From Alloascoidea africana (taxonomy: Eukaryota > Ascomycota > Alloascoideomycetes > Alloascoideales > Alloascoideaceae): a stretch of 64,000 nt of DNA. The notes under the pieces are model-generated. The model searched no databases, was not told the DNA's origin, and saw only the letters and a program-made list of their open reading frames with translations. Positions 32,749 to 58,068 of the stretch are shown in pieces. A program made the position numbers and the translations under genes. Each line of letters opens with the position of its first letter. Position 1 is the stretch's first letter. The DNA is taken from positions 62,001-126,000 of the forward strand of contig JAKTTT010000037.1 in NCBI GenBank assembly GCA_030581615.1, read 5' to 3'.

Positions 32749-33285
32749 ATGCTTTTGTATATCCACGACAATAAGAACGAGGTTGATCAACGTGAGGATC
32801 ACAATAGCGGGACAGATGTGTCAATCGAAGACCTTTCAAAGCTTGGAGTAATCGCTCTACACATTGACGATCAGGACGAGTTAGAGAAGATTGCAAAAGA
32901 AAGGGAATACAAGAATCGTGATGTCATCGAAATTACCAAGGAAACTTTTGGAAGCGAAGAAGCGCTAAAACGGAAGCTAGATGAGTTTTACACTGAGCAT
33001 ATCCATGAAGATGAAGAAATTAGATACATTTTGGATGGTGAAGGATACTTTGATGTGCGTGACAATGAGGAGAGATGGGTCAGAAGTAAATTGAATAAAG
33101 GAGATCTCTTGATATTGCCGGCAGGCATCTACCATCGGTTTACCCTTTCATCAACCAATTACGTTAAAGCTTTACGATTGTTCAAAGACGAACCCAAATG
33201 GATAGCAATAAACAGAGGCGAGGACGCGGATTCTAATGCCCATAGAACTGGATACTTGAAATCCATTGGGATCGAAGTCAATTAG
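32749..33285 (+). CDS. ADI1: Acireductone dioxygenase (methionine salvage)
   Basis: Converts acireductone (1,2-dihydroxy-3-keto-5-methylthiopentene) plus oxygen to the ketoacid precursor of methionine and formate, the penultimate step of the methylthioadenosine salvage cycle. The 178-aa cupin has the full metal-binding set: H84, H86 and E90 (EHIHEDEEIRYIL) and H129 (AGIYHRF). Length matches S. cerevisiae Adi1 (179 aa). The start is the first ATG, after a T-rich leader. It shares a 233-bp promoter with IRC22, including the TCACGTGA box. The coding region is followed by T-runs at 33285-33307 that may help 3'-end formation. Confidence 0.97.
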   Translation: MLLYIHDNKNEVDQREDHNSGTDVSIEDLSKLGVIALHIDDQDELEKIAKEREYKNRDVIEITKETFGSEEALKRKLDEFYTEHIHEDEEIRYILDGEGYFDVRDNEERWVRSKLNKGDLLILPAGIYHRFTLSSTNYVKALRLFKDEPKWIAINRGEDADSNAHRTGYLKSIGIEVN

Positions 33286-36200
33286 TTTTTTTATTGTTTT
33301 TTTTTTTGATTTAAGGATGGGGTATTTCAAGATGTATAGTTAGGTGATGTAGCTGTGCACGAACAGTTGATTTGTGTTGGTATTTCAAACGTTTTTGATT
33401 TCACATGCTATGTCAATTTCAACGGCGCTAATCCTGCTGACCGTAGTTCCGTTTGCAAGCATTTAAAATAGAAAGGCATCATAAGCCCCGCCAGATGGAA
33501 AGTAATCAGCAAGTATTGCTGTAACCCATGTTTGGAGGCTCAGATTTTAATCGCTGACTGGAGTATAGACCAGAAATCATCTCAAATGTATTGGCATTAA
33601 GATGATGCATTATTAGAGTGTAACCCCAGATTTGTGAAACATCTAGAGTCGGTGGTCAGTATCCTCAAAAAGAATAATTAAGAAAATTGGACGCAATTTA
33701 ACACAAAAGGAGACAAATCCACAGGGAAAGAAAAAGACCAATCCCCTGTCATCATTGACTGGTTAGATCAGTTTGCCTTTTATAATCTGAGCATTCAGCA
33801 GACTCCAAGCATCGACATCTTGAACTGATAATATTTAAGTCATCTTACTGAATTATGGTTATTCCTGATTGCATCTGTCTCTATAGCTGTACTCAGTCTC
33901 TTTTGTTAACCTATACCGTAGAATGCTTCCGCAAGATTAGCCTTAAAAGTTTAGAACCATACAGTTTGCATATTTCGTAATACTTGAACAAACAGTAAAT
34001 ATTCTTGGTCTTACCCGTCATTTTTAGATATAGATCCATCAAGTTCGCTTGTTTATTACTTCTTAGTACCCCTGACTATGGCTGCGTATCCTAGAAGTTA
34101 AAAATATTTGAAGGGTTCTAAACTAAATCAAAAGGTGGCTTTCAAAGGTCTCCTACTTGCAAATATCAAAAGTTATTATCCCTAAAGCTGTGATTTGAAT
34201 CTAAAACCGGTTCAATACATATTCTGCTTATGAAGCCAATCATTTGTTTTACGACCAGTATATCAAAGCTAAAAATACTGGTAGGACGGTGAACCTGGTC
34301 AAATTAAATGCTCCAAAATTATTTCAGTTTGTCGACTTGGCCGAACAGCATCTGTAGACTTTTGTGATTAAAGACGTTCAAATTCAAAATACATGTAGAA
34401 CCATTGTAAACAGAGTGCTCATATGCCCAGTGATCTACAAAATGGAATTCTCTTTAGATCAGTGTCCCCCGCAACTAATAAACAAGCTCTGTTTTGTGTT
34501 TCTTCAAACATAACAGATTAGGGATGATCCTGGAAATACGAGAACTTATGCACTCCTTGAAATGGTATGGATCTTTTCTTTGCGATAAGTTTCTAGCCAA
34601 TAAAGAGGGGTAAAACCAATTCTTAAAATGGGTAGGATCTAAACTGTCTAATTTCCAGAGCAGTTATAATACTTGAGAAGCGAACTGTTGCTCTGATTGT
34701 TAATTACAGCAGTTGGGAGTAGAGGAAGAGAAGGTTATCAATCTCAAAGCTCTGACCTAAAAAGTCGAGGATATTTCAGGCTATAGAAGAGCATTACTTT
34801 AAATAAAGTAGCACTACAAATTAGCCGTAACCACGGAAAGTTCAAAGCTCAAGCTTGCACTAAAGAAATAAAAAATTCCTAGATGATAGGAGGAACTTTG
34901 ACATTGAGTTGTTAGCACCAGTTTCAACAGCGTGGTATTAAATTTAGACAGAAAAAAGTACTGAATTCAATAGAACCAGCCTTTTGCCATTTGCATATTA
35001 ATGTCAACTTAACTGCCATACTACGAGCTATAGAACTGTTTCTAACGACACGGCATTCGCACCTCAAGGTACTGGTAGGGCTCGCAGATACAAAATAGAA
35101 CTGTAAAAGATAAAATGTCTTAAAGGTGTATTGGGAATTGTAGATCCTAACAATTGCGATATATTTATTACAAATATCATTTCATTTTGTTTTTGAGAAG
35201 AGTGTTGGAATAGCCGAGAAGCATAGATGTCTCACTTTGTAGGTTATTTTGGCGCAAGGCTGATAGCTGCGTACCATACTACTCTGTTTTAAATCTTAAC
35301 ATTAATGCTTTTACCCAAATTCCAAATTTAAGGTTATGCAGGGCCACTGTAACTACAAATAGGGAAGTAATTATTGCTCCAAATACAATGTACTGAGGAG
35401 ATCTTAGTCGGTTCAAAAGGTGTAACAAGAGGTTTTTTCCGGTTCAATTACTTATAATCATATAAAAAGCGTTATTTTACAATTTTATAGTTGATGAATT
35501 GAACTCCTTTAGCTTATGCCGACCCAAGTCAATCGTCAGCCTGACTCTATACTGGCTCTAAGACCCTCGCTTTATTCTTTTCCTGACCAAATTAGATTGA
35601 TTACATCAACAATCGTTGCTCCGTCCTTCTTGCCCGACTAAAGAGAATTTCTAGATAGAGTCTCGTACTCCGTGTGCATTAATTTTAATATTCAATTCTA
35701 TCATAAACCTGTCAATCCCTTTGAAATCCGCTCTCAGCACTTTGAGCCCTGGACTTGTTTCCGCTTCGTCCTCAGTGAACGCAAAAAGCATTCATATATA
35801 AGATCAGGCCACCTAGACAGTTTTAAAAAGACGATGAAGAATGCCTGGATCGGTAACCATATGACTTTATCAGCATGGTACGAGTGTTCTCTGACTGAAT
35901 AAATTAGGCCTCTCATTGTTAGGGCCTGTTATCGGAGTTACCATTATCACGTTAGTTCATAAAGGTCGAAGGTATCCATATTCTTATGAGCAACATAATA
36001 AGACAAAGCCACACTACTCATAATCTCACAGTAATCATGTCTGCATTATAGCCTTCTTCTAGAGGCAGTTGTGATAATTCAATGACTGTCCCAACGCAAG
36101 AGAAAGTTGCTATGTCATGATTTTGGAAGCTTGTGAACTAGAGGCGTAAGCCAATTAGGTGTTTTTCAAAGGCTAGAATACTCTGGGTTATTATTTATCT

Positions 36201-37325
36201 TAAGAGGGTGAGGATAAGGCAGAGGACTATAGTTCAATTCTATCTTTGAACGCCAATATTTTGTGCTATGCAATTGGGAGACTCCGTTCCTTTTGCTGTG
36301 ACCCAAACTTTAAATAGAAAACTTCTGCATTGCTAATCCACCTTTTTTTTTCTATTTTCAAAAATTATGGCACAGTCCGCCCCAACTAGCGACAGGTTAA
36401 TCCTAAAATCTTCGCCGTCGGTTTTTGAGAAAAGCGGTACATACGGGATAAAACGCCTCCATTCGTCCTCGTTATCATCTGGGTATACATATTAAAATCT
36501 TTGGTCACTCATCTAACATAATAGAGCGATCGATTACGAAATATGGATAATGCTGTTCGACTTGCCTATCCAATCACAAATATTCTCGAGAAGAAGAGCA
36601 AAGCTGGTAACCTGGTACTATTGGCTCGCTTAGATCCCACAAGGAACAAATTAAACATGGGGTCCTTAAAGAAAAAACCGATTTATAAAGCTATGTGGCC
36701 ATCTAGAGCGGTCCACTATGAAAGAATCTGTACCAATTAAGGACAAGGACGCAAGATGGCAGAACGATTCACTTACAATTCCACAAAATCGACCAAACGT
36801 GAGGTACTGCCATGATGTGTTCCACCCAGTTTCAATTTCATTTCTACTCTGGTATAAGTATATTGATGATACTTTTGAAAGTCCTTTGAATTCTATAAGG
36901 CTACCTGAACTCCGCGCAATTTAGATACAGAAGATATTAATATAGCTTGATCATTTAAACGAGCTACAAACCCATCTCTAGCATGAAAAATAACCATGAA
37001 TTATCATCAGCAGAATTCACGACAGAAACCCTTTCTGAAGCATAAATATCCATCATCTCCACCATACTCTGGGCCCATTAAACTCTATCTATCATCCCTC
37101 AAATCATCATACTTCTTGTTCCTAAACTTTTCCAATTCTCGCAGTATTGTTATTATAAAGCGACATTGTTCATATAATAATACGGACCAGCCGTTAGATA
37201 GAATTATAGTTTGAAAACATCGAGACATATTTATTTGGAGTGAGTGCACTGATACTAATACTCTTACAACTGCAATATTCTGACTGCAGGCTTCCATTGG
37301 TTTATTTTCTCAGTGTTACAAATAA
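33286..37325. other. Gene desert with decayed sequence
   Basis: 4 kb, A+T-rich, crowded with stops in all frames. Readable patches without supportable identity include 36367-36495 (ATG frame of 42 codons starting MAQSAPTSDRL, preceded by a T-rich leader), followed at 36543-36740 by a 65-codon frame. Between them GTATAC, TCTAACA and TAG occur as in a 42-nt intron, which is shorter than the 61-70 nt introns seen here. These may be remains of a small gene. A B-box-like GTTCAATTC near 36234 is not accompanied by a foldable tRNA. Confidence 0.5.
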
Positions 37326-37583
37326 ATGGGAATAAATATCAGCATCAAAGACACGCCAAAGTACTCGTTTATTGAGATTAATGGGGACAACTTTTCCTCT
37401 TCAAATCTCGATGTAAGGATGATGTCATTCACCAGTGTGCAACTAGTAAGTCGAGGGGCAGACAAAGAAACAAGACTTATCTCACTGCCTTACAAGCATC
37501 GATATCTGATTGATAAGGTAGACATCTGCTCTTCCGCTGCCATTGTTCGACTTTTGAAGCTGGACAGTAAGAAAAGAAACTAG
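37326..37583 (+). CDS. Orphan small protein, family member B (85 aa)
   Basis: I do not recognise this protein. It is 85 aa and predicted soluble: no signal peptide or membrane segment, alternating hydrophobic pattern suggestive of beta strands, basic C-terminus (DSKKRN). Residue by residue it matches the 85-aa ORF at 46013-46270 at about 59 of 84 positions (70%), including SFIEING, NLDVRM, SFTSV, KHRYLID and RLLKLD. Many DNA differences between the two are silent, for example in the SFIEING and NLDVRM stretches, which points to selection on the protein. It lies on the opposite strand to its three relatives, isolated in a gene desert. The relation to the longer members at 42148 and 44472 is weaker (shared KxKDxxxxY and LPxKxxY patterns). 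Confidence 0.72.
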   Translation: MGINISIKDTPKYSFIEINGDNFSSSNLDVRMMSFTSVQLVSRGADKETRLISLPYKHRYLIDKVDICSSAAIVRLLKLDSKKRN

Positions 37584-39153
37584 GCCTAGACAGGACCATG
37601 GAAATTGATTTAACAATAATATAATCAAATTACACGCATATCTAAAATGGAGAAGGATACAGTCTATTTTATTCAAGTATTTGAGGACACTGCTAGGATG
37701 TTTAAACTTGGTACGCATATTTTGGATCTCATTATTTATTTGTTTATTTATTTTCTTTCATTTGAAGCAGCAGTATTGCCTCAGTTATTACAAAAGCAAA
37801 AGCTCTAAGATTTGTCAGACATTAAAAAGCAAGTTGTTTAGAAGCTCAATACTAAAGGGCAGTATTAAAACAGATAATTTGATATTGAATTGGAGATATC
37901 GCGCTGGATCCAAAAGTGTTGATAAAGGAACTCCAGATGTCCATAACGCCTCTTTTAACTTGTCATTATTATTACTCATCCAGCCAAATCGAGTGGGGAG
38001 ATTGCTTCTATTGGTTTTGATTTGGATAATGATGGATTATTATTGTTCTTTATCTTCTTAATGGAGTATATGTTGAAAAGGTATTAGCCATCAAAATGAT
38101 TCTTTTTGTAAAAAGTTCAGCTTATCTCAAGAATTAGCTTTTAGAAAGAGATAATTAATATCAAAAAGTATTGAAAGTGGTCATTGTAGACGACTCACAG
38201 CAAAATGAGTTATGACCAAAGATTCTAACTGTTTCTAAGGAATAGTCATGTCCACAGCCAAAAGCTAAGAACAAGGGTCCATAAAAAATTACAAAAAGCT
38301 CCCCACATTGAGGATGGAACGGATCTATTTCTTGAAAAAAACATATGAATATGACGCTAGTGGCATCATGCTGAAAATGGGGCACGTATGGGCTTTAAAG
38401 ACCACGGAAATCTCAGAGCCGTGTCATATTTAATCATTTGGTGTTTAGATCATGATCGATGGACTCAGCATCTCTGGAATGTACTACTACATGACCGAAA
38501 ACCACATGCATTCAGCATTGAGTACTACTTTCTATTGGTTGTTTGTTCACTACAGGAGATGCCACAATGCTCCATCTCTTACTTTATTTATTAGATCTTT
38601 TTTTTCTCCTCTGGTGTGCGTGTTAGGTCTTTTATAGTAGTTGATTTGAGTACTATTTATTGAGTTCTTAATTAGCATAAATAAACAGTTAAATAAAAAT
38701 TGTCATATCTTGAGAGAATGCAAAGCTAAAGCAAATTCGCTCTATCCGCAAAGCGCTGTACAAAGAAAGCTGCTTGTTATAAGACGAACATTTCATGATA
38801 AAGAAGTCTAACAATGAATGAGTAACCAATTTATTTTATAACTCATAAATCAAATGCAAACAACAAATTTAAATAGTCATTAATACATATTTTGAAGAAT
38901 AACATATGCTTTTAGTTTTGTTATTCATTTTTTCCCTCTTTTAACCCAGCCAAGTAACAGCATTAACCTTGTAAGCCATACATTGATAAACATATAAACC
39001 CAGTTACCTTTGAACTTTTGAAAACTTATGATAGCCGGGTCATTCGAACAGAGATTCTTAGATTATCCTAGTTCTATGCAGCTTTTCTTGAAATTGAAAA
39101 GCCCCATTTCATAAAAAAGATTAGAACACAACCATCAATTTCGATGGAAAAAG
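37584..39153. other. Gene-poor interval
   Basis: 1.6 kb, A+T-rich. A frame at 37681-38061 starts with TTG and has hydrophobic low-complexity content; one at 38161-38385 (-) has no recognised features. Nothing convincing. Confidence 0.5.
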
Positions 39154-39642
39154 CTAACAATCACATTCTGGCCTGAAATGGTAGCTTTCAGTTGCTGTTA
39201 CAAGAAAACTCGTAATTTCAATCGGGTAATATTCAAAAAAAGATTCCTTTTGAAGTCCACTCTCAACTGCTCTGTTCTTTAACCGCTTCAAACCTTCAAT
39301 AATGCTCGTTAGCATAGCATAGTGCTTTGTGAATAATTTGTTCAGGTCTGTGTTTTTAATAATCCTTTTTAGTATGATTAAAATTGGAATGTTGTCTCTG
39401 ACAACTGCCAAGTCCAGGTCAACAACTCTGCCACCTCCAAACTCTTTGTTATTATCATTAAAGACAGAATACATCCGAAGAGAGTTTAGAGCCGAATCCA
39501 AGCAATGTAGTGTTATGCAGTCTGATTTTCGCCGTTCATCAACAGTGACGAGGATTGCATTTATCAGCTTGCCCCTTGCCTCATCATCAAGTGCAAAACT
39601 TTTCAGAATCTCAAGATTTTTTTCGATCGTTCCGTAGGCCAT
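39154..39642 (-). CDS. Hypothetical helical protein (162 aa)
   Basis: Not recognised. The frame opens with ATG (MAYGTIEKNLEIL) and gives 162 aa with mixed, globular composition and a mostly helical hydrophobic pattern, unlike the low-complexity frames nearby. A segment VVDLDLAVVRDNIPILIILK near residues 72-91 resembles a segment in the 141-aa ORF at 54008-54433 (VVKNDLPVLSTLK). The following part (KRIIKNTDLNKLF, IIEGLKRLKNR) loosely recalls TFIIS N-terminal-like helical bundles, but I would not rely on this. It ends in a Cys-containing tail (RPECDC). It sits amid the orphan family cluster and may be lineage-specific. Confidence 0.5.
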   Translation of the reverse strand: MAYGTIEKNLEILKSFALDDEARGKLINAILVTVDERRKSDCITLHCLDSALNSLRMYSVFNDNNKEFGGGRVVDLDLAVVRDNIPILIILKRIIKNTDLNKLFTKHYAMLTSIIEGLKRLKNRAVESGLQKESFFEYYPIEITSFLVTATESYHFRPECDC

Positions 39643-42147
39643 AATAAACTTATGTTATTCTCGTTTGTGACAGTTAGGATACAGCAACAACGAAAGTATG
39701 AGAGCTTTAAGGTAATCTGGTCGTGCCGAGGCATATGGGCAAAGTAGGTTAGCACTTCTAAAAAGATCCCTTTTCTTGCTAAAGAAGAATAATAATAAGC
39801 ATACAACTTTGAATGGGGTTGAACAAGTTTTTATACTTCCCCGTGTATTTTTTTTTCATTATTCATCATTCACCAGTTGCCACTGTTTTTGTGATCCCGG
39901 AATGAACAACTGTCTTTAGTGATACCATAGTCATAAGCTCAGACATCTTTTGGCTCCTATTATTTTTACATTGCCCTTCGCTCGGCCTGAATAACTGAAT
40001 TTGGAGTCACCGAAACTCTTGATCACTCAAAAATTGTGTTACTCTATCTTTCCCTTTTTTTTTTTTTTCTAATCTCTTTCTTCGAACTTTTGATCTGTAC
40101 TAATCACCGACCTCGTAGAATCATCTACACAGAGCACCCCCGTACCCTTTGCTACTTGCGCCACTTTGTAGCTCTACGAAACCAAGGAAATAAATTATCA
40201 AATCAGTAGTATGGGTACTATCGTAAAGAACCCCCAGCTCCTGCCATGTTATGCGCAGCAGTCAATGGCTACCATAAACCTTGGGTTTTTACAAAAACAC
40301 GAGAGTATTATTCTATTATGTTAATAGTTTTCTGCTTTGTTGTTACCAGATTAATTGTGGCCCCTAACAGGCACTCAAGCTGAGCTTCAAGTTTCAGGAA
40401 GATGGCACCGAAGAGCTTTGAAAAAGGATCCTGCTCATAGGTGAGACATTCTTTTCTTGCATTCCATGCTAGGCAAAAATTCCTTCTTCCCCTCCCCCTG
40501 AAATCAAGGAGGGCAAAAGAATGTTTGTATTTGTGTGATCCCAGACATGGCTCCCAAGGGAATATTTGGTAATGTGTTTGATTGTCCGATCCACTCAATG
40601 ATCAACTGCTCCGTCTTTCGTATGTGTCAGCATTCGTGACAGATAAATTTGATCTTGTTTCTCACGGTGGCAAAGAGCCAGGTATTGAATAATTGCGTCG
40701 TAAACCGAGTAACTGGAGAAACGTTCAGGGGGAGAAGAAGTTGGCTAGCCTCTAAACTTGCTGACCCACTATAAACTACTCAGAGCCATAATGGATTTTT
40801 ACTAATGAACATATCTCAGCGAGAAGAGTAAAGGCAGCTTTATCCAATATGTTACACTACCAAATCAAAAGATATAATTATTTCATAGTTACAGATTTTA
40901 TAATGATGGTCGTTTTAATGCTTGATCCATCAGCAACCCGAAGAGGTACTCTTGAATCACCCAACTTGATAGACACAATTTGAAGTTGGATGCCAACGTA
41001 TTACAGAATAATTCAGACCGTTTAATGGAATTAGGGAGACGACATACCGCATACTCTCGTATATCTTTCTTATTTCATTTATTGTTCAGGATCAATTTAG
41101 ATGTAAATTGAGCTGTTTCACAACTTTAATTCGCGCTAACCGATCAGTACAAGCAGACATCAGCGTTTATAGACTCTGAAGGGAAATGCCTCGATTTTTA
41201 TGATTTTCAGGGACCTATCCCAGAAATAAAAAGAAAAAATAAACTACTCAACTCTGAAACATTTGTATATTTATATATTTTTTTTTTGACACATATAAAA
41301 TTGTGCTTTTTGACAGACCGGCCATTTCTAGAAAGACATGACTGTTGACAGTTACAAATTACGCTTCTGGACTTTTTGGAAACTAGAGTCACATTCACTT
41401 CGAAACGCCATTCTTTTCAGAAGGCATCAAACTATTCTTTTACCCCAAACATAGTTTTCCTCTTGCATTCTTCTTTTAAGCAATCTGAGATTTCTCAATG
41501 ACGGTTAGCATTCATTTATAGCGTATTTCTAAGGAAGACGAAATCAAACAAAAATCAACTGAAAAAAAGGCATTTGCTTCCTACTCGTAATATTCTGCTG
41601 AAACATTAAATCGCTCTGCGGCTTTGGAAAGAAACCGATTCGGTGTCATTTGACTCATGTGGAGATGTGAAGGGGCAATCATAAACGCTTTGTCTAGATG
41701 CTTCAGATCAAGACAATAATATTAATAATATCAATAATAGAAACAGTTCGCTAAACAAAACATATAATGTAACTATACCATATTCGTACACACACATGTC
41801 AAAAAGAGAGGGAAGATGCAGTCCTGAGTACTGCCAAAGATTCAAAGTTGTAACACAGCCAAAGTTGACAAAAAAGTAGGGGATCTTAATTTATTCACCT
41901 GCCAACAGAAGTATTGATTGTAGAAAAGAAACAATTCGATCTCAACGTTGTGGAAAACATAAAGTCAGTGATCGTATTAAGCATAATCTTAAAGCCTCAG
42001 AAATGAGTCTTATATCTGGGGGTGATGGTTTATTTTTCCTTCTTTTAGCTTGTAGAGGCAAGAGGCTATAAGCACGATCTAACGGTCATGCTTTGTTGCT
42101 CGACTTGGAAATGTTGATCATGAGAAGCAATTCCAAAATCCAAGAGA
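39643..42147. other. Gene-poor interval
   Basis: 2.5 kb. A T-run occurs near 40050-40068. A minus-strand frame at 40308-40598 reads like protein in its second half but opens with TTG. A frame at 41207-41398 (-) is short and Cys/Lys-rich. No RNA gene, tRNA or recognised domain found. Confidence 0.5.
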
Positions 42148-42987
42148 TCATAGTATCCTAGGTCCACCATAATTCATCCTATTTTCCGGCGGGATTATTG
42201 GCTGGTGGTTTGCACCATTCAAATGTGCAATATTGACTGCGCGTGGCCCTCCCATTTCATGACCTGCTTGATTTCGCTGCTGTGCCAGTGCTTCCTGATA
42301 CTGTTGATACTGTTGATGGAGCTGCTGCTGCCTCATTTTCTCTTGCAGTGCCAGCAACTGTTGCTGCTGCTGCTGCTGTTGTTGTTGTTGTTGTTGTTGC
42401 TGCTGCTGCTGCTGCTGTTGTCGTTGAAGAAGCAATTGATGATGCAGTTGTCGCTGCTGTTGCTCATGCTGTAACTGCCTGAGCTTGATTTCAGCTTCAG
42501 AATTAGGTCTCGACAATTGTTTTGCACGCTTAAGATGCGCGCCAGGAACTTCTAGTCTCTCACGTCCCTGAGCAGGATGAACGAACGGATGGGCAACATT
42601 TGAGTTTGCAATTGGGACAAATCTAGGGTTTTCGTGTACTACTTTAGGACTGATGATTGGCACTGCCATCCCAGCTGGATTCAGAGCGTCTCTATTATGG
42701 CCATGGTGATGTGGTTGCTTACTTTGGCTTTTCATCAATTTTATAAGAAGGTCGTTAGTTTGTTGTTTTGTATTGACCGTAAACACGGTGATGGTAGGGA
42801 TTTGCATGTTTGTTTGATACATCCACTTAGAGGGCAACACGATGGTATAACGCGATCCATTTTTTGCAATAAGTATTAGCTTTTGTGGAGGTCGGAAGCT
42901 GATTTTAAAGTTTTCAACGTTGTAACCACGGACTTGGACACAAAAATAGTCCTTATCGTAATCTTTGAATTTTACGTATATCGGCAT
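42148..42987 (-). CDS. Orphan protein with polyglutamine tract, family member C (279 aa)
   Basis: Not recognised. Residues 1-90 (MPIYVKFKDYDKDYFCVQV onward) form a beta-rich domain that appears related to the small ORFs at 37326, 44472 and 46013: shared features are the opening I-x-V/I-K-x-K-D pattern, VRGxN, a central basic turn and LPSKWxYQ. After this come a low-complexity linker and a glutamine-rich region with 21 consecutive Gln (encoded at 42358-42420 by mixed CAA/CAG). A Q/H/L-rich coiled-coil-like segment and a Pro/Asn-rich C-terminus (NRMNYGGPRIL) follow. Such Q-rich tails occur in yeast regulators and RNA-granule proteins, so a regulatory or condensate role is conceivable but is not shown. 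The start is the only in-frame ATG before the domain. Confidence 0.72.
   Translation of the reverse strand: MPIYVKFKDYDKDYFCVQVRGYNVENFKISFRPPQKLILIAKNGSRYTIVLPSKWMYQTNMQIPTITVFTVNTKQQTNDLLIKLMKSQSKQPHHHGHNRDALNPAGMAVPIISPKVVHENPRFVPIANSNVAHPFVHPAQGRERLEVPGAHLKRAKQLSRPNSEAEIKLRQLQHEQQQRQLHHQLLLQRQQQQQQQQQQQQQQQQQQQQQLLALQEKMRQQQLHQQYQQYQEALAQQRNQAGHEMGGPRAVNIAHLNGANHQPIIPPENRMNYGGPRIL
42358..42420 (-). repeat. CAG/CAA repeat, 21 glutamine codons
   Basis: Uninterrupted run of CAA and CAG codons inside the 279-aa orphan ORF, flanked by further Gln/Leu/His-rich sequence. Mixed codons suggest selection for glutamine rather than simple slippage alone. Confidence 0.9.
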
Positions 42988-44471
42988 TTCAAAGATCTAC
43001 CTCTGTTAAAAGTGACAAAGTGAGAACTCTAAACAGGAGAAGGTTCCCTTTATACCTTGAGTTGAAAACCTGGATGAGCTTTGAGTAAAAGTAAGTCAAA
43101 ATCTGTTGTTCTCCTACTTCGATGGGAAAAGAGAGGAGGGAAAAGATTTGGTATCAAGAGTCCAGCTTGTTTAAGTGGTGGTTCAGTTCAATTATTGATT
43201 GCAATTAATTGCAATGAGTTCAGGAATGTAAACAGTCACTCACTTCAGCTTGGACTAAAGTGGCGATTCTGGCTGGCTGACCAAGGGTGCTTCCAAAAAC
43301 TAAAGAGAAAAGAGAGATTGTGATGAAAAAAGACTAGTTTGTTTAACAACAAACAAAACAAGCTGCTCCATTCCCATTTGCTACGCCTGAACCAGCAAGC
43401 CAGTCGTATCATCTGAAGCACGCATATGAAAAATATTTTATTAATAGAGCACTCTTTATTATTTCTAGCAATATACACAAGCCATTATGGTTTGGGATTA
43501 TTCAAAACCAGATCCAGTACTAAATAGAAGCCAAACATCTTTTTGTCTCATATTCGACCCCAATATAAAAGGTGTCGACAGGCCTTGAACGGAGAAGTTG
43601 GATGCAAAGATGCAGTTAGTGCCGTTTTAGGAGTTTATTCGAGAAAACTGTCACTGACTTTGTCAGAAAACTTGGCGCCAGCATTTAGTGGTAAGTATCT
43701 ATCGGTAGATATTGTGGCAGATTGGGTTGTTTCTACTTCTGCCCAAGATCCTATCCTCAGTGATTGATAGATTTACAAAACCAGACTTATGCAAATATTC
43801 CACGAGGCTGGTGTGTGTTTCCTGAACGTGCGATTGAACTCTGGAATCAAGAAGAAAAAAGCAAGTAAAACCATATGGCATCAAGCCTTAACTATTTCCT
43901 TGGTTATTATCTGATAAGACAAGTGATCCGCTTTCACCAGCCCTCAATCATCTTTGCTTCTTTTTTTCCGGGGATAGAATGAGAGAAGGAAATCTAGATA
44001 TAATAGAAACCGATTTATGTGGGATGAAGGACAAGCATAAAATGGATCTTGATCCGAATCTAATTTTGAGCTTTTGAGCTTGGCTGAGGGTCCGAAAGCC
44101 TAGCCTCTGTTCACATACCCATGCGGGCTCAATTAAATCATTTGTGAGTGTCGCTGTACAACAGGAACATGACCTCCTATCCAGAAGGTCATTCCGGGTG
44201 GCAAAAAATGTTTTTGTCATTCTGCTGATCTCAAATCCTAGATTAATATGAAATGGACTCCAAGCATTTATCTCGAATTTTAAAAACAAGCTTCAGCAAA
44301 CCAAAACTTTACTAATATAGCACCAAAATTGCAATGACATAGAACTCATTATTCAAAAAAGGTCATACACTTCAAAAACTAAACAAGCCGTCAAGATTGA
44401 AAACATTTATGCAAAACAAAACATAACAAAAAAAAACATAGCAGAATACAGCATTACCTTTAATCAAACAA
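42988..44471. other. Gene-poor interval
   Basis: 1.5 kb between two minus-strand orphan genes. The first 100 bp or so is likely the promoter of the poly-Q gene. The frames at 43543-43767 (+) and 43948-44289 (-) have no recognisable features. Nothing else seen. Confidence 0.5.
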
Positions 44472-44765
44472 TTAGCCTGTTCCAGCAACATTAACAAACA
44501 GTTTTAATCTGTTCTGCCCCACTTCAGCAGAAACCTTTCCATCGTATTGCCAGATAGAAGGCAGGTAAATGTAGTAATGGTCTTCAGGTCTGTCCTTTTT
44601 GCTCAACACAATTCTCGAGTATGATCTCTGTTTGTCATAGAGAATGTCAACAGACTGTATGTCTGCAGATGACCCCCTCACATCAATGCTAATGAAATGT
44701 AGATATGTGGAGTTTGCATAGGTGTAATCCATATCTATCTTAAACATTCGCGGATTTAGCATCAT
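44472..44765 (-). CDS. Orphan small protein, family member D (97 aa)
   Basis: Not recognised. 97 aa from the first ATG (MMLNPRMFKIDMDYTY); the open frame extends further up only with a TTG start. Strongly alternating hydrophobic pattern suggests a small beta sandwich. Similarity to the poly-Q ORF at 42148: ISIDVRGSSADI compares with CVQVRGYNVENF, and YYIYLPSIWQY compares with YTIVLPSKWMY, with the same spacing of about 30 residues between the two blocks. Members at 37326 and 46013 keep the LP-x-K-x-x-Y part. No signal peptide or membrane segment. Same strand as the members at 42148 and 46013. Confidence 0.6.
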   Translation of the reverse strand: MMLNPRMFKIDMDYTYANSTYLHFISIDVRGSSADIQSVDILYDKQRSYSRIVLSKKDRPEDHYYIYLPSIWQYDGKVSAEVGQNRLKLFVNVAGTG

Positions 44766-46012
44766 CTTGGCGATTAAGTGTGTTTGTAGTATAAATGGTG
44801 AGTGCAGAGATCTCTCTAGTACGGCTACCAACCCAATCTTGAGCGTACTAAGAGTCTGAATGAAAGTTCGACCTTAGTTGGAATGTTCTGTGCTAAAGGT
44901 TTTTAACAATACCAGCGAAGAAGTATCGTGGGTACCGACAAGAAGATAAGAGTCCAGGATAAGGAGGTAGAACAAAACTCCAAGGGTCGAATTGAAGTAG
45001 GGAGGTATGAGAATGTGACACAATATTGTGTCTTTTGCTCTCATTTCAGCAGGATTTCCTCCAAGCCCTTGCCAAACAGGAAAGTTGCCATAATCGTTGA
45101 AACTCCCATGTCTGAGCACCATATTTCCAGAGTTTACCAGAAGCCATAGGTACAACAATACCCATTCAACAATGTGAATCAAAAGTTTCTCCGTCAATGT
45201 CCGTGGACGGTGTTCATGACATCAGACACCAAATATTACAGCTAGCATCTGCAGGACATAATAATTTCGCCCTTCTTTGCCAACAAAGCAATTTGAGAAA
45301 GTAGACATTATAGCATATGCCGATGCCATCACCTTCAAAATCTCAGTAACACTGCACATCTCGTTTTTCAGCGCCAGACAGACAATCCGGCTGGATAAAG
45401 AGCGTGTGATACTGACATTTATGCAAAAATTGAAAAACAAATGGCGTAACAAACTGAAAGAGTCTTGTTCAAGATAGTAATGGCCAAGAACAGGAGATAG
45501 TTTTGTGCTCTATAATCAATCAGCGTAGATAGATAAAATAGAAATCTACATGAAAAAGGGAAGCGAGCACATGCGTTACATCCTATTGTCGAGCAATCCT
45601 GCTTCTCTGGGAAAATGTGTAGTACTTTTATTGAAGAAAAAAAAAGTTATCCAAATAATTCTTACAGTTTTACATTTTGAAAGAATTAGACACAAAAATG
45701 CTACATGGTGATAAGACTTCCCCGCACCTTGCCGTTAACCTGTAAAGATGAAAAAAATGAACAAATTGCAAAGCCTACAGTCAGAAAGATAAAAAATAGA
45801 TAAAAAAGGCGACTGCAAACCATCTGTGGGACTGCTCGTTTGGCATTGGCAAGAAAAACTGGGCTGTTGGTATGGTACAGTTCAAAATGGTATTCTGTTC
45901 CTTCAATTTGAAGATTGGGTTAAAAGCCTTAGATTTCAAACAAGTATTCAAATTCATAATAAGCCGAGTGTTGCCTGGAAATAATGTGGTTTAGTGGGAG
46001 CAGTTCAATCCA
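44766..46012. other. Gene-poor interval
   Basis: 1.25 kb. A minus-strand hydrophobic frame (44874-45197) starts with TTG, and a short plus-strand frame lies at 45277-45477. Neither has a recognised product. A-run at 45636-45645. Confidence 0.5.
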
Positions 46013-46270
46013 TTAACGTCTCTTGCTTTCATCCAGCTTCAACAATCGAATAATGGCCACTGAAGAGTTGCAATCAACATGATCAATCAAGTAGCGATGC
46101 TTTCCTGGTAGAGAAATATGTTGCGTCTCTTTACTTTTCCTGTTTATGAGCTTTACGCTTGTGAAGGATGTCATTCTCACGTCGAGGTTTGTCTGAGACA
46201 GGTTACTGCCATTGATCTCAATAAACGAATACTCGTGAGGTGTATCTTTAACAATTATATGTATTCCCAT
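46013..46270 (-). CDS. Orphan small protein, family member A (85 aa)
   Basis: Not recognised. 85 aa, closest relative of the ORF at 37326 (about 70% identity over the full length with a single compensating gap pair). Conserved blocks are KDTP, YSFIEING, NLDVRM, SFTSV, ISLP, KHRYLID and RLLKLD; both end in a short basic tail (ESKRR here). Flanking DNA of the two genes is not detectably similar, so only the coding part has been kept. This is typical of an old duplication under purifying selection. The ATG start is shared in position between both copies. Likely soluble and beta-rich. Confidence 0.72.
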   Translation of the reverse strand: MGIHIIVKDTPHEYSFIEINGSNLSQTNLDVRMTSFTSVKLINRKSKETQHISLPGKHRYLIDHVDCNSSVAIIRLLKLDESKRR

Positions 46271-49200
46271 GTTTGCAAGGTGAAATCTTTCCTGAGTTTC
46301 TTATTTGTAAGTTGTTGGTATTTTGAAATTTGAACGACGAAATATCTCTCTATTTAATTGATATGAACCTCTTGATTCTTTAATTGCTTTGGCTTGCTTT
46401 TTTGCTTGCTATGCTTTTTTGCTTTGCTGGCTAAGTGATAGAGCGCTGTTGGTTTGCCGCTTAGATTCAAAGAGAGAAATATGATAATCGGTATGTTGCG
46501 AAGAATTTTTGATTGCAAATTCGACCTCTTGATGTTCCAGCTGATTTTTTTTCCCACTTCCTTAAATCTTTTTTTTTCTTTTTTTGTTTTCTTGAGCTCA
46601 GGCAACTGACGAGTGGTGATCCAAACCAAAAATGTACGCAATTGTAAACCCAAACAAGCCCAAAATGAAATAATAACAAGCTAGACCGAACTGGAAAATC
46701 TGGAGTATTGAGAAGTGAAGCACTGATCTATAATCGTGTCTATATCCTTTCTATAGAGTGGAAATGTGATATTAAAAACTAGTCGAAGAGCATGAAGAGC
46801 GTCTGGAACATGGGTCCAAAGCTCTATTTATCCTTTTTGCTTGGACATGGCTTATTCTCAATTTTTCATTCGTGCTGACTGGTCTCCGTTGAAAGAGTTA
46901 GACAAGGGAAAGGAAAAAATTCCTCTGCTTAGAATCAACATTTAATAAAATATTCCGTCATCCAAGCCGGTTCATTTAAGCTGTAATTATATCTTGGACT
47001 TAACCGATTTCCCGCTTCGCGGGAAGAGAAGTGTTTACCACTCCCAAATGATAGCTCTACCTCAAATTTCTGAGCACCAGATAGAGTTTTTTTGCTTTTA
47101 CTTTAATTTTTATGTTTATTTTTATTTTTATTTGTGTTTTCGTGGACTAAAAAGGGGGCAATGGCATATGACTGAGATTATTAATGGTCAATGTGGAGGA
47201 TTTTATTTCAAGTAGACGCTTTTTACGCGTTTTGAATGATTGATTAACAGATCCTGGAGTAAACTAGCTGTTCGTATTCTAATAGCAAAAAGGTGCAACA
47301 TCGTTTCTCTAATGTTGGCACTACCCTCCGTTCTTCTCGTCCAAGAAGATCAGCTCTCTGATAAGGCGTAACAGCAACAGATACTAGTTGAAATGAAATC
47401 TAGAGCTAGTATCCCTTTCTCTAAAAAGGATTTGGAGAAAAAATGTGACCAAACCACGAACACTCAATTCTTCAAGTCGTGAGTAAGGCGTAAGTAATCG
47501 TGGCACTGCACATCTGTCTTTCTGGATATGGGGCTAACCCAGGCATAACACTCAGCATCTCTCAATTGGAAGATAACGGTCGACGACATGTAAAAATTCT
47601 TTTCTCCTGCTGCTTTCTGTGTGCGTGGTGCAAGATTGCCTATGAACGAGGACGTACCGTAATTTTGCTGTAGCTGGCAGCATCCTGCTATACATTGAAA
47701 ACAATTCTGATTTTATCAGTTTTTGATTCTGATGATAGGACAATGACATGCTTACTCTTGTTTCATCGCAAATGAAGATCTTATTGGTTGTATCAGTGCA
47801 CTTCAACGCTCATTCATAATAATCCGTTTAGAATGTACGGCCCATCCCGATCGGATGAAATATTCGGCAGTTGAATTCTAAGCGCTCCATTCATCCTATA
47901 CCACAAAGGTTCCAAGAATCGGTCCTGTTCCATAGTATTGTCCTTGTTACAAGGCATATTACCGATTACACGTCTCAAATATTCCATTAGTCAAGATGTA
48001 CTAGATATGAGGTTGCATCACTCTCAAAAGTTTTGCCTAAAAGCAACAATATTGATTTTTGTCCATCTCTCTTATCCAACGGTGCCGTTTTAATTGAATA
48101 TCGGAATGGTCTGCAAATTAAATTTTCATTCCTTCAGTCGTTTTTCTTCCTTGCCCTGATTACACGCAGTTTAGAAGAGAACCAAGCCTCCGGTTTAACC
48201 AGCTGAATCGGTAAACTCCTCCTTTCCTAAGACAGAAAAAAGATGGTAAGCGTCTATTGATCGCTATTTACTAACCCAATTCACCAGCGTGTGAATACGG
48301 TGGTAGCCTCCAAGGTCTGCACTTGCACATTTATTTCCGAAATCCAGCCAGTCACCCTTGTCCTGCGATACTCCTTGCTTTTATTGGCAATGCTTGGAAG
48401 AATGAAAAGGAAATGCTTGCCCCTTCGTACTGAGTATTACTTAACATTTGGACTTTGAGCATAACTCTAAAGAAACCGAAATTGTGTAACCTAAGGCAGC
48501 TAGAACTAGAAGGAACGATAAAATATAAAGAATGTACTGCGGGAGCGAGTACCATGGAAAAATTGAGGACAGGGGAAGGTTGGGACCAACCTTAACGATG
48601 ACTTAATATCCTTGGAGAAGGTCTCGTTCTACTTGGTGGTAAATTGGGCAATACTCGCAGTCTACAGAGGGCACGCTCACGAATCGTTTCTTTAAGCGAA
48701 ACTCCAGTTAAAAAGAGGAACTTAGAAATATATTTCCGGGAAGAAAGCACAAATGACCATCATCAATGCCTCTCTGTGCTTGACGAAGCAAAAATTGCTC
48801 CAACCCTGCATAAAAACGTTTAGATCGGCCAAGCAAATCCAGATCCACCTTTATTGTTTCCCTAGCTAGAATACAGGGATGCATGCTGCAATATATGATC
48901 ATTCTGGTAATAAACTGTGGTGACGCATGATCAAACAGAAATAATAAGATGGTTTCTCCATTCTTACCCGCACATGGCTGAATAATCCTATATTGAAGGG
49001 GAGCAGCAGCAAAGAGACAACTTTATGTCTTGTCCAAGCTTTAGTTCTAATGGAGGTCTTGCCGCTTATTTCATTTTCGAAAACAAAACTCTGTAGTATT
49101 GGGACCTGGCATGGAAGGGAAATAATTCGTCCATGTCAGGGACTGCGTAACGGGATTAAGATTAATCAATATACAGTTGGCTTTTTTTAATAGAAGCCCT

Positions 49201-50019
49201 AAATGCCTCGATTCTTTTCAAATTACGGTATTCGGAAACCGAACACTTACACTAAGACCATTTCTATCTAAGACAATTTACGATTCTTTTTTTTTCTTTT
49301 TTTTTTTTGAGAGAGAGAGAGAGAAAGAGAGACAGAGAGTGTACAGTAAGAGGCTAATTGCTGTATGCCTATGCAGTGAAACATAGAACGATGTAGTACG
49401 GATCTAAAAATTGGTGTACTCTACTGGAAGGCCTCGGTAAGATCTGACACTATATATCGAATTCTGATATCAAGCGTTCAAGGCATTCTTTTGCCCTATT
49501 ATAGTTCTAGTTCAGTGAGATTTACCGTATTATCAATAGAAATCTATACTGTTTAATCTGGTTACTGTGGGATATTTCTCGTATTTTATCAAAGCCTACT
49601 GTAATAAGAAATGCAAAGAGCTTTAGACGCTTGCAAGGATCTTACCAAAAGTTTATGGGAAAAAAAAGGATTCAGCAAGAATGTGGAAAGGGAATGCTAT
49701 AACGCTTGATACTTTCAGAAAGCAAAAAGATATACTGTGGTGTAGTGCTATACCTCAGATTGTACTTAATCCATTCCCAGAAAAATAAGAAGAATATGTA
49801 AGTGAAAAAGTCTTTTACAGTATTTCGGCTTTATTCATAAAGATGTTTATCCATTATAATAAGTATGAAGGAAAGAATGGCTTTAACCGATCCGAATTTT
49901 TTTTTGACTTTTCGTAACTGAAAGAAATTAAGTGAAGCGAATCAAAACATGCAAAAGAAATATACAATGTGTTTGATTAAACCATAAAAATTTTTAACAA
50001 ATACCAAAACTTGAAAAAC
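46271..50019. other. Gene-poor interval upstream of the orphan cluster
   Basis: 3.7 kb. Contains T-rich stretches (46540-46590, 47090-47140), short frames on both strands with no recognised domain (for example 47552-47806 and 48708-48902, minus) and a T-tract/GA microsatellite near 49290-49340. The last 100 bp is the 3' flank of the first siderophore transporter. No RNA gene recognised. Confidence 0.5.
49286..49340. repeat. T-tract followed by (GA)n microsatellite
   Basis: About 23 pyrimidines (mostly T) followed by about 30 purines of alternating G and A with few interruptions. A pyrimidine/purine strand switch of this kind is a simple-repeat tract; no coding role seen. Confidence 0.8.
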
Positions 50020-51928
50020 TTAACTGGAAAAGCCTTTTCTTTCCAAATCAAGCACTTGAGAATGATCTACTTGTTCCTCTGCCTTATCGTGATCTTCCTT
50101 GTGGAGGTCGAGATCCTTCATGAGAAACATCAAAAAGATCATGGGGATTGTAAAGCAGGTAGATGCGATGGCAAGCTTCTTTTGGGTGACCCGGTAAGCA
50201 CGGTCGATGGCCTCTCTAGCTGGTGTTCCAACCTCAAACTTTTGTGCAACCACAATGCTCTTGAAGATTGCCTCTGCTTGGGCCTTGTTCTTCTCTGGCA
50301 GAAATTTTTCAAGCCTGTTGGGCAAGATGTTGTTCCAAATAGAAGCGCCAATAGCAGTACCAAAAGCACCTCCGAATACCATAGTTGCAAAATAAATGGC
50401 AGTCGAAATAGCAACTTCATTCTTTGAAACTATTCCTTGAATAATGACCTGGGCCGTTGTTTGGTAGAACCCTCTTCCAACACCGAATATTGCCTTGGCC
50501 GTTACAAAGGAAGCTTCATTCGCAACGGCACCGTCCTTATCAATAAGATAGATCAACAAACCCTGGCCCAAAGTGACCATTGGCACGCCTATCCAAACCC
50601 AAATCCTAGCCATTTTTGTGTATTTGATGACTACACCGACTACCACAGATGATATCTCAAACCCTACTCTAGTGGCATTGTCTACCCGAGTTGCTTTTCC
50701 TGGACTCATATGACCAGCAACTTGCAAAAAAGAAGGCAAAAACGATGAAGAAGCAGCATAACCTAAAAAGTCGAATGCTCCTATCAAACATGCAACAATT
50801 AACGTGAGCGTGCGAACCATTTTGTAAGGAAGGAAAGGCTTTTTGGCGAATTTCAGGTCCCATACGAAGAAGGCTATTAGAATCAAGGGACCTAGAACGA
50901 TTGTGACAATTGAAGAGGCCTGCTTCCATCTGTAGGAGTACCCCTTGCCTGTTGTCGTAAGAGGGATCAGTGTCAGGGCAAGACCAGCCAGAAGCAAAAA
51001 CGCTCCGAAGAGGTCAAACTCTGTCCACATCAGATACCAAGCTGTTTTTGCTTTTGAGTGTCTCTTGTCCTCAGGAACAAGACCCATAACTGCAACCCTT
51101 CTCTTGTCACCGTGCAACTTGGCCTTGTGGTTAAGATAGAACAGAGAAATGATGAGTGGAGCGATAGCAAAAGGGAGGATAATGGCCCACATTCCGTATC
51201 CCCATCTCCAAGTCGAATGGTCAAGCACACTTTCACCAACAATACTTCCTAGATAAAGAGTCGGAATAGCAGTCAAGGCTTGGGGCAAACTGGACCAGAG
51301 ACCTCTATTAATCAAGTTTGTCGTATCTGCAATAAAGACCTGCTGCATTATTCCGTAACCAACATCACCAATTCCTCCGAAAATCTCTCCTGCAACGTAG
51401 GTTGAAATGTTATTACTGGCGGCAAACATAATGTAACTGAGAACCAAGATGAAAACGGAGAGGGTGAAACCATCAGGTCTACCGAATATATCAGATAGTT
51501 TAGCAATTATTGGATAGGAAATGATGCTTGCAATTCTGCTCACAACATTTGCAGTTGTTAACATGGAATGCGCTTTGAAAGCACTAGTTGCATAAGGCAC
51601 ATAGGTCGATGAAGTGTATCTGCAAAATGCAATGATCAAGGCAGAGAAAATTAGACTAAACAGTTGTATTTTGATTGTTAATATAATGGTAGTTTGTAAT
51701 GTTCAACTGTTATTTGAAAACTTACCAAGCATAGGATGTTATCAATAGTTTCTTTGGCCATGCATTTCTCAAAATTTCAGCACGGCTAACACCCGGGAGA
51801 TACTCAGATGAAGATGAATCATCTGCGACCGGATTTTCTCTGTTTATCTGGGTCCTAGTATCTTTTTCCTCGCTGTATTCTTTTGAATCACTGGCCGACT
51901 CTCTTCTACTACTATGAATAGAAACCAT
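50020..51928 (-). CDS. Siderophore-iron transporter, SIT1/ARN family, copy 1 (two exons)
   Basis: MFS permease importing ferric siderophores with protons. Predicted CDS is complement(join(50020..51655, 51726..51928)), 612 aa, about 14 membrane segments. The 70-nt intron (51656-51725) has donor GTAAGT and acceptor TTTAG, with a TTAAC branch-like site; it splits a codon after SYA and leads into LIFSALIIAFCRYT. Exon 1 encodes the acidic, Ser-rich cytosolic N-terminus ending in the conserved EYLPGVSRAEILRNAWPKKLL. Family marks are SSTYVPYATSAFKAHS in the first helix and loop, and IAKLSDIFGRPDGF between TM2 and TM3. The start ATG at 51928 precedes MVSIHSSRRESAS. A paralog with the same intron position lies 6.1 kb away on the same strand. 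Substrate specificity cannot be read from the sequence. Confidence 0.9.
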
Positions 51929-56121: not shown

Positions 56122-58068
56122 TTAATTCAAAACGCTTTTCCTTTGTAAATCAAGCGCCTGTTGTTGAATTTGATCTTGTGCGTCATTGACTTCTTCTCCC
56201 GCCTTCTCTTCGTCTTCCTTATGAAGTTTGAGATCTTTTATAAACCACATCAAAAAGATCATTGGAATCATAAAACAGGTGGATGCGATACCAAGCTTCT
56301 TCTGGGTGTCTCTGTAAGCACGATCAATTGCCTCTCTAGCTGGTGTTCCAACTTCAAACTTTTGTGCAACGACAATGCTCTTGAAGATTGCCTCTGCTTG
56401 GGCCTTGTTCTTCTCTGGCAAGTACTTCTCGAGTCTATTCGGCAAAATGTTATTCCAGATTGCAGCGCCAATAGTAGTACCAAAAGCACCTCCGAATGTC
56501 ATAGTGGCAAAGAATATACTGGTTGTGATTGCAACTTCATTCTTTGAGACTATTCCTTGAACAATAACCTGAGAAGCGGTCTGGTAAACGCCCCTACCGA
56601 CACCAAAAATCGTCTTTGCTGTGACGAATGCAGCCTCATTTCCAACAGAGCCATTGGTATCAACAAGGTGGATCATCAAACCCTGGCCCAAAATGGCCAA
56701 AGGCACACCGATCCAAACATAAATTCTGGTTCTCTTTGTAAACTTCATCACAATGCCGATCAATACAGATGCAACCTGGAAAGACACTCTGGTCGCATTA
56801 TCAACTCTAGTTGCCTTTCCTGGACTCATATGACCAGCAACTTGCAAAAATGATGGCAAAAAGGTAGTGAATGTTGCATAGTTGAGGAAATCAAAGCCGC
56901 CGATAAGACATGCTGCAATGATTGTAAGTGTGCGCACCATTTTGTAAGGAAGGAATGGCTTTTTGGCGAATTTTGTATCCCAAACAAAGAAGGCTATTAG
57001 AATCAAGGGACCTAGAACGATTGTGACAATTGAAGAGGCCTGCTTCCATCTGTAGGAGTACCCTCTGCCTGTTGTCGTAAGAGGGATCAGTGTCAGGGCA
57101 AGACCAGCCAGAAGCAAAAACGCTCCGAAGAGGTCAAACTCTGTCCACATCAGATACCAAGCTGTTTTTGCTTTTGAGTGTCTCTTGTCCTCAGGAACAA
57201 GACCCATAACTGCAACCCTTCTCTTGTCACCGTGCAACTTGGCCTTGTGGTTAAGATAGAACAGAGAAATGATGAGTGGAGCGATAGCAAAAGGGAGGAT
57301 AATGGCCCACATTCCGAATCCCCATCTCCAAGTCGAATGGTCAAGCACACTTTCACCAACAATACTTCCTAAATACAATGTGGGGATGGCGGTGAGAGCC
57401 TCTGGAAGAGAGGACCAGAGACCTCTATTAATCAAGTCTGTCGTATCTGCAATAAAGACCTGTTGCATTATTCCGTAACCAACATCACCAATTCCTCCGA
57501 AAATCTCTCCTGCAACGTAGGTTGAGATGTTTGTACTGGCAGCGTACATGACGTAGCTGAGAACCAGGATGAAAACGGAGAAGGTGAAACCATCCGGTCT
57601 GCCAAATATATCGGACAGTTTAGCAATGATGGGGTAGGAAATGATACTTGCAATTCTATCGACCACATTTGCGGTTGTCAACATGGAGTGTGCTTTGAAA
57701 GAGCTGGTAGCATAAGGCACATAGGTCGAGGACGTGTATTTACAGAAAGAAATAATCAAGGCCGAGAAAATAAGGCTTGACATTTGGTTAGTGAAAAGTC
57801 TAAAATGAAAAAAAAAGGTTTTCCACCTGCGTAGACTTGCTTACCATGCGTAGGAAATGATTAAGAGCTTTCTTGGCCAAGCATTTCGCAGAATTTCAGC
57901 GCGGGAAACACCAGGCAAGTACTCGCTTGAAGAAGAAGAAGCGTTATCTCTGGCGGGTGTTGTGGTGTGGATTGGTGAAGAAGAGTGCTCCAACTCTTTG
58001 ATCTTTTCATTGTCATGGTCATCCAAATCGCTATTGGAAGCCCTTCTGTCATTCTCAATTGCGGCCAT
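56122..58068 (-). CDS. Siderophore-iron transporter, SIT1/ARN family, copy 2 (two exons)
   Basis: Paralog of the gene at 50020. Predicted CDS is complement(join(56122..57775, 57845..58068)), 625 aa. The 69-nt intron (57776-57844) uses donor GTAAGC, branch CACTAAC only a few bases before acceptor TCAAG, and splits the same codon as in copy 1. The N-terminus differs between copies (MAAIENDRRASNSDLDD here) up to the shared block EYLPGVSRAEILRNAWP. TM1 motif SSTYVPYATSSFKAHS and loop motif IAKLSDIFGRPDGF are conserved. The coding sequences are overall similar, but bases 56991-57370 are almost identical to 50871-51250. The C-terminal tail is longer (QQQALDLQRKSVLN). The GATA palindrome upstream suggests iron-dependent repression. 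A role as a siderophore importer is well supported; the exact ligand is unknown. Confidence 0.9.

Follow-up and report, generated by a model that had tools for sequence, protein, structure and literature searches.

Four reading frames in a sparsely coding stretch

The window analyzed here, 64,000 nucleotides of Alloascoidea africana DNA, contains four ATG-initiated ORFs, A to D, all situated inside 9 kb (Table 1). An earlier note on this DNA, made from the sequence alone, had reported them with coordinates and strands that all proved correct.

Table 1. Positions in the window and strands of the four ORFs and their parts
Feature	Position	Strand	Remarks
ORF A, 85 aa	37326..37583	+	ATG-initiated; HSP20-like domain by predicted model
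ORF B, 85 aa	46013..46270	-	paralogue of A, inverted, 8.4 kb apart
N-terminal domain of C, residues 1-87 of 279	42727..42987	-	probable third member of the family
C tail, H/P/Q-rich, poly-Q	42148..42726	-	presumably disordered; CAG/CAA mixture
ORF D, 97 aa	44472..44765	-	possible fourth member of the family

The surroundings had been described as a gene desert. They are indeed sparse, with frames of at least 150 aa covering 11% of positions 33301-50000 as compared to 22-89% (mean 52%) in 20 samples of 10 kb drawn from this genome, but they are only partly unusual: gaps longer than 4 kb occurred in four of the 20 samples, the longest being 7.4 kb, and a further ORF of 162 aa lies inside the sparse stretch at 39154-39642. 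Low gene density around A-D is partly normal for this genome.

A centromere or a mobile element was rejected as the nature of this stretch. Among inverted repeats found in 33200-50100, the longest two (I1 and I2) consist of the coding sequences of A and B, and all 48 matches listed when the DNA of the sparse stretch was searched against the genome fall on the poly-Q repeat of C; this search is weak as a proof of absence because it scores best candidates only and leaves the query's own place unlisted. Extension of A by an N-terminal intron was also rejected, as a stop codon lies in frame directly before its ATG. Weak intron-like signals end just 5' of the start codons in A and C and would lie in 5' leaders. 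The standard code fits, five of the six CTG codons of the INO1 gene being opposite Leu and one opposite Met in the best PDB match.

Selection on the A/B pair

A and B are 70% identical, with identical start and stop positions. That the two share about 70% of residues with many silent differences was confirmed: in 84 aligned codons there are 33 synonymous and 25 nonsynonymous differences, and differences at the three codon positions are distributed as 22/16/48 (chi-square P 4e-5). Four methods gave dN of 0.24-0.29 and three gave dS of 1.46-3.33, dS being saturated and not estimable by NG86. Such dN in relation to dS of at least 1.46 or saturated indicates that purifying selection has acted on both A and B since an old duplication, and both are under purifying selection. 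The dN/dS check which the earlier note had proposed for this pair gave 0.07-0.20, not near 1, and its description of the family as fast-evolving is contradicted for A/B, where the ratio is well below 1.

In a search of the genome (23 Mb) with A only two matches had E <=0.001, A itself and B (E 3.5e-29), and the two retrieve each other by profile at E 2e-31. Similarity of their 500-bp flanks was not above shuffles, in agreement with the remark that the flanks are dissimilar, which held for A/B. Local amplification, also suggested, is reduced to one old inverted duplication that gave A/B, the rest being one or two far more distant relatives.

One hundred random sequences matched to this stretch in trinucleotide composition contained on average 3.2 ORFs of at least 85 aa and 1.6 of at least 97 aa, so length is no proof for A, B or D. 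Around three ORFs of at least 85 aa are therefore expected by chance in this stretch, and A-D could be regarded as chance ORFs or decayed genes. We consider this very improbable, because differences between A and B are biased by codon position and dN/dS is low, and because C exceeds every ORF in the 100 simulated sequences, none of which held one of 279 aa.

Relation of C and D to A/B

All four ORFs had been described as apparently one family, which is clear for A and B from their identity. For the others we estimated the significance of alignments from 2000 shuffles, uncorrected for the choice of these four ORFs in the earlier note. Local alignments gave P 0.007 for A-C, 0.0005 for B-C, 0.006 for C-D, 0.025 for B-D and 0.09 for A-D, while global alignments gave 0.001 for A-C, 0 of 2000 shuffles for B-C, 0.085 for C-D, 0.56 for B-D and 0.83 for A-D. 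The similarity of B and C is located in the first 60 aa of C, and hhalign of the A+B profile with C gave P 0.0065. The codon score of D (0.069) is higher than that of all 126 non-coding pieces.

The profile search that had been proposed retrieved A and B mutually, but neither C nor D at significance. In held-out HMMER rankings among 4304 scored pieces the A+B profile placed C only 16th (E 16) and D 211th. With A+B+C as the profile, D was the first non-member (E 0.25, the runner-up having E 0.36), and with C+D, B was fourth (E 1.5). Queries with single sequences ranked C 4th at best (query B) and D 8th at best (query C). From these ranks and the alignment P values, both drawn from sequence, C is probably a third member of the family and D a possible fourth one.

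A model of D, made with C as second row, has seven predicted strands and pLDDT of only 59.8. Nothing meaningful was found for it in PDB among 64 matches at E up to 10, the list being headed by a chain of RNA polymerase III (E 0.72), with a small heat-shock protein in fourth place (E 2.1). A TFIIA match of C in Pfam (E 0.0051, 17.3 bits, cut-off 36.2) was dismissed as an effect of composition, since residues 79-238 which it covers are mostly in the Q-rich part.

It could also be that neither C nor D shares an ancestry with A/B and that the pattern common to them is a convergence of small beta proteins, an explanation compatible with any of the other readings. The low places of C and D in the A+B ranking point this way, as do the uninformative model of D and its global alignments with the other three ORFs, none of which goes beyond shuffles at 5%. 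On the other hand, the B-C shuffle P of 0.0005, the position of D at the head of non-members in the A+B+C ranking and the clustering of all four ORFs speak for relatedness, and we leave to convergence a considerable chance, although one clearly below even.

Predicted fold and comparison with known systems

Searches of Pfam and NCBIfam with lax thresholds (E up to 10) gave no match above cut-off for A, B, the C domain or D, and NCBIfam gave none at all; at the same threshold hmmscan found no Pfam HSP20 (PF00011) or CS (PF04969) match in any of them. The genome searched with these two models has eight HSP20 and four CS places, and the A-D locus is in neither list. No match was obtained by hhalign with this genome's HSP20 domains (P 0.089 for A+B+C, 0.35 for C+D) or its CS domains (P 0.75 and 0.33, respectively), and the best E in PDB sequence searches was 1.5 with the three-member and 0.33 with the four-member profile. 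None of the titles listed in literature searches describes free-standing HSP20-like orphans of budding yeasts, which does not prove that no published account exists.

The AlphaFold2 model of A, for which the alignment consisted of the three window sequences A, B and C, is a seven-stranded sandwich with pLDDT 84.6 and pTM 0.74; four of the five models had pLDDT >82 and one was poor at 61.1. Its strands extend from residue 4 to residue 79 of 85, leaving no arms, and strands 4 (37-42) and 5 (48-53) are separated by 5 residues in a tight hairpin. All 50 matches listed by Foldseek against PDB (of 942, E up to 10) are HSP20-like, a fold common to small heat-shock proteins and Hsp90 helpers: 43 are small heat-shock proteins and seven are CS domains (Sgt1, p23, Shq1). 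The best ones, the CS domain of Sgt1 (2jki) and a Sulfolobus ACD (4rzk), have TM 0.76 of query and rmsd 2.3 A. Sequence identity to A among the 50 is 5-21%, and E-values are modest, the best being 1e-3 and one of 942 being <=0.001. Of the 20 top matches of the model in a viral library, 14 are named CS, SGS or HSP20/heat-shock proteins.

Judging by this model, A would belong to the HSP20-like fold superfamily (ACD/CS), and B probably as well by its identity to A. Structure prediction, as had been proposed, was informative for A and uninformative for D. The view that no known yeast family has this pattern stands in so far as no family library gave a match above cut-off, but not at the level of fold, and the undescribed system that had been suspected is not borne out, the A/B model being an HSP20-like domain. 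A small beta-rich orphan family is supported for A/B and probable for C.

The fold match could be a loose one and A/B a lineage-specific beta-sandwich of other origin (e.g. T-box/Ig-like) with a non-chaperone role. Besides the modest Foldseek E-values, Pfam T-box matches B with E 0.0079 (16.5 bits, cut-off 26) over 37 residues, and T-box proteins are the best PDB sequence matches of the four-member profile (E 0.33-0.99). However, this match spans about a fifth of the 182 model positions, A, despite its identity to B, does not match T-box even at E up to 10, and T-box chains are absent from the 50 listed fold matches (of 942) of A. We regard such an origin as unlikely.

The reading we put forward, with about an even chance of being right as a whole, is that A and B are old paralogues, each with a single predicted HSP20-like domain, acting as bare CS-like docking or co-chaperone modules. 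Since A/B resemble the bare HSP20-like fold, what had been taken for an unknown family probably represents a known fold in a strongly diverged branch, not a new kind of system; sequence resemblance to the parent family would have been lost through divergence. As A and B have no assembly arms, they are best read as bare domains of CS type that serve as adaptors or co-chaperones. They may then be soluble and dock onto a single partner, and would not form holdase oligomers. p23 and Sgt1 bind Hsp90 while Shq1 binds a particular client, and the partner of A/B could be Hsp90, as for the former, or one particular client, as for the latter. In C the same domain is probably fused to the Q-rich disordered tail, which could gather C into assemblies, and D is perhaps a further diverged copy. 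One can extend this to partner-specific chaperone modules A/B regulating C as a scaffold with a prion-like Q-rich tail, in a self-contained assembly-controlling system, which we consider a long shot; if true, bare HSP20-like domains specific to this lineage would form a small system controlling a protein assembly. The locus is also a compact case in which the probable origin of an orphan family is visible only at the level of fold, in a predicted structure; at 85 residues the HSP20-like fold is very small, and with two copies kept by selection the role of the bare domain could be addressed in a simple setting.

Small heat-shock proteins assemble via arms and carry a beta-6 loop, an N-terminal arm and a C-terminal I-x-I tail. 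A/B could be minimal members, armless alpha-crystallin domains that bind unfolding proteins, perhaps in mixed oligomers with the genome's HSP20 proteins. The 43 listed fold matches put A in the same fold superfamily, and the eight HSP20 places would offer such company, but the model of A is without arms and beta-6 loop, I-x-I does not occur in the last six residues of A or B, the G-v-L-type signature (A-x-x-x-n-G-v-L) that four of the genome's HSP20 domains show is missing from A/B, and hhalign with those domains gave no match. We regard this reading, too, as unlikely.

By the tight hairpin and the lack of an N-terminal arm and I-x-I, A/B appear closer to CS domains. Those of Sgt1, p23 and Shq1 are, like the A model, seven-stranded sandwiches of comparable size with a tight hairpin replacing the beta-6 loop, and the CS structures 2jki, 2xcm, 1ejf and 3eud compare with it at TM 0.67-0.76 of query and rmsd 2.3-2.9 A. 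A/B differ in having no significant sequence match to CS domains and in being a bare domain, whereas CS-domain proteins (Sgt1, p23/Sba1, Shq1) carry other domains or tails. The W-x-Q N-terminal start of CS domains is absent from A and B and present in L041 and L042 of this genome, on which this comparison rests because the CS stretches of L043 and L044 begin past that point. A/B also resemble orphan genes that diverged beyond recognition, being old and selected and having no family-library match above cut-off, with a predicted fold that is still recognisable.

A conserved gene pair in a gene-poor stretch

Positions of ORFs and associated features in the window
Feature	Position	Strand	Description
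A	37326-37583	+	ATG ORF, 85 aa
B	46013-46270	-	ATG ORF, 85 aa
C	42148-42987	-	ATG ORF, 279 aa
D	44472-44765	-	ATG ORF, 97 aa
E	39154-39642	-	ATG ORF, 162 aa
Poly-Q tract of C	42350-42430	-	CAG/CAA mixture
Signal upstream of A	37240-37313	+	intron-like, weak
Signal upstream of C	43243-42997	-	intron-like, weak
MFS transporter gene	50020-51725	-	
Apparent intron of this gene	51725-51656	-	70 nt, GTAAGT...TTTAG
MFS transporter gene	56122-57783		

The ORFs A, B, C and D, which an earlier note had read from sequence as one orphan family of beta-rich proteins, are all present as ATG ORFs as described there and represent four of the nine ATG ORFs of at least 82 aa in the stretch 33301-50000. Chance alone would yield ORFs as long as A, B and D (on average 3.2 of at least 85 aa and 1.6 of at least 97 aa per simulated sequence), and an ORF as long as C was found in 0 of 100 simulated sequences. 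Codon scores, in mean bits per codon, were 0.012 for A, 0.001 for B, 0.069 for D, 0.014 for the additional ORF E and -0.049 for C. Non-coding pieces of at least 50 aa (126, some taken from stretches also used as background) averaged -0.128 (sd 0.073, highest 0.040), while leave-one-out scores of 11 ORFs in the window, each either recognised or long, ranged from -0.013 to 0.229. D scored above all 126 non-coding pieces; A, B and E are high within the non-coding spread, not above it, and under 10 of the 11 comparison ORFs, and C is under all 11. The coding case for A and B comes from the comparison of the two, not from codon use.

As the earlier note had claimed, A and B share 70% identity, their alignment holding two indels of one residue each, and carry many silent differences: among 84 aligned codons 33 show a silent difference and 25 a residue change, and the differences at codon positions 1, 2 and 3 number 22, 16 and 48 (chi-square P 4e-5). 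Three methods gave dN of 0.24-0.29 with dS of 1.46, 1.62 and 3.33, while NG86 gave dN 0.24 and a dS that could not be estimated. The dN/dS of about 0.07-0.20, together with dS values near saturation, indicates an old duplication after which both copies stayed under constraint; this check, proposed in the note itself, contradicts its description of A and B as fast-evolving. Their flanks are indeed unlike, since 500 bases on each side are not above 200 shuffles and the coding parts are, which, with start and stop coinciding, supports the gene limits. A genome search with A listed two places only, A and B (E-value up to 0.001). A and B are real genes, an old constrained pair.

The assembly comprises 23.18 Mb in 138 contigs. 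It is not doubled at the INO1 locus, for which one place was listed, and five of six INO1 CTG codons face Leu in the best PDB match (the sixth Met), which indicates the standard code at CTG. The supposed gene desert holds in part: frames of at least 150 aa cover 11% of 33301-50000, compared with 22-89% in 20 sampled stretches, all shorter (10 kb) and all less sparse, but four of the 20 samples hold a single gap of more than 4 kb. A centromere or a mobile element was rejected for want of supporting repeats, as the two longest inverted repeats in the stretch are A and B themselves and a DNA search of the genome, scoring best candidates only, listed 48 matches, all on the poly-Q repeat. Poly-Q tracts look common in Alloascoidea africana.

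ORF E is unrelated to A-D (ranks 788 to 1910 in four profile searches), has no family matches and was alone listed in a genome search (E-value up to 1). About 4% of sequences simulated for the region contain an ORF of this length; E is possibly an orphan gene. The two MFS transporter genes are tandem and similar; splicing the apparent intron adds to the N-terminus of the first a part that resembles the beginning of the second gene's frame. The weak intron-like signals end 12 bases before the ATG of A and 9 bases before that of C, and are possibly introns in 5' leaders.

Membership of C and D

Alignments were compared with 2000 shuffles per pair; the P values are uncorrected for the earlier note's having picked these sequences. 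The local and global P values were 0.0005 and 0/2000 for B-C, 0.007 and 0.001 for A-C, 0.006 and 0.085 for C-D, 0.025 and 0.56 for B-D, and 0.09 and 0.83 for A-D. With hhalign, A+B matched C at P 0.0065, D at P 0.31 and C+D at P 0.011, and A+B+C matched D at P 0.0015. The profile searches covered 5014 stop-to-stop pieces of at least 30 aa, drawn from the window together with 20 further stretches (264 kb). The A+B profile placed held-out C at rank 16 (E-value 16) and D at rank 211 of 4304 scored; C+D placed held-out B at rank 4 (E-value 1.5) and A at rank 21. With A+B+C, D was ranked 4 (E-value 0.25), right behind the profile's own members and ahead of a piece at 0.36. Single sequences retrieve relatives less well than combined profiles: A placed C and D at ranks 180 and 355, B at 4 (E-value 2.6) and 40, C placed B, D and A at 5, 8 and 16, and D placed C, B and A at 9, 17 and 129. 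Searched against the genome, the C domain and D each listed nothing but their own place at E-values up to 10. The family of four therefore stands for A and B, while by profile and shuffle tests C probably belongs to it and D possibly does; the locus is an old constrained pair with one probable and one possible relative.

Predicted fold and its relatives

Pfam and NCBIfam scans of A-D gave no model above its cut-off. The AlphaFold2 model of A, built from an alignment that also included B and C, has a mean pLDDT of 84.6, a pTM of 0.74 and seven strands (residues 4-9, 13-19, 28-34, 37-42, 48-53, 59-67 and 71-79). In confidence, four of the five models were alike and the fifth had pLDDT 61.1. As C was part of the input, its membership gains no independent support from the model. 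Foldseek listed 942 PDB matches at E-values up to 10, one of them at or below 0.001. All of the best 50 of these are HSP20-like by title, 43 small heat-shock and seven CS-type proteins (three Sgt1, three p23, one Shq1; in entries of complexes the matched chain was taken to be the co-chaperone), with TM up to 0.76 of the query and identities of 5-21%. The rmsd is 2.3 A to an Sgt1 CS domain and likewise to a Sulfolobus alpha-crystallin domain, and 14 of the first 20 rows from a viral structure library were named CS, SGS or HSP20/heat-shock proteins. The model of D (with C as second row) has pLDDT 59.8 and seven strands in similar order; a structural search with it gave nothing meaningful. B has a sub-threshold Pfam T-box match (E-value 0.0079, 37 residues), A has none, and the best PDB sequence matches of the four-member profile were T-box proteins (E-values 0.33-0.99); this resemblance is probably a chance likeness of beta strands. 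The proposed undescribed system is thus not categorically new, given the HSP20-like fold predicted for A, and the interest of A and B is that of an orphan family accounted for by its fold.

Many small heat-shock proteins possess a beta-6 loop. It is absent from the model of A, where strands 4 and 5 are joined by a 5-residue hairpin, and so are their arms, the model having three residues ahead of strand 1 and six beyond strand 7; in these features the model is CS-like. However, CS domains of the same genome begin with W-x-Q in the two stretches reaching that far, and A and B lack this motif. Family profiles matched neither own-genome CS domains (P 0.75, 0.33) nor HSP20 domains (P 0.089, 0.35), in profiles built from all four CS places and four of the eight HSP20 places listed. 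Because of this we claim the fold and not membership in either family: judging by the model, A and B most likely belong to an HSP20-like branch that has diverged strongly. Elsewhere, single CS-type domains act by binding, p23 and Sgt1 to Hsp90 and Shq1 to a specific client. By analogy, the most economical reading is that A and B would be bare docking domains, and C such a domain with an added Q-rich tail.
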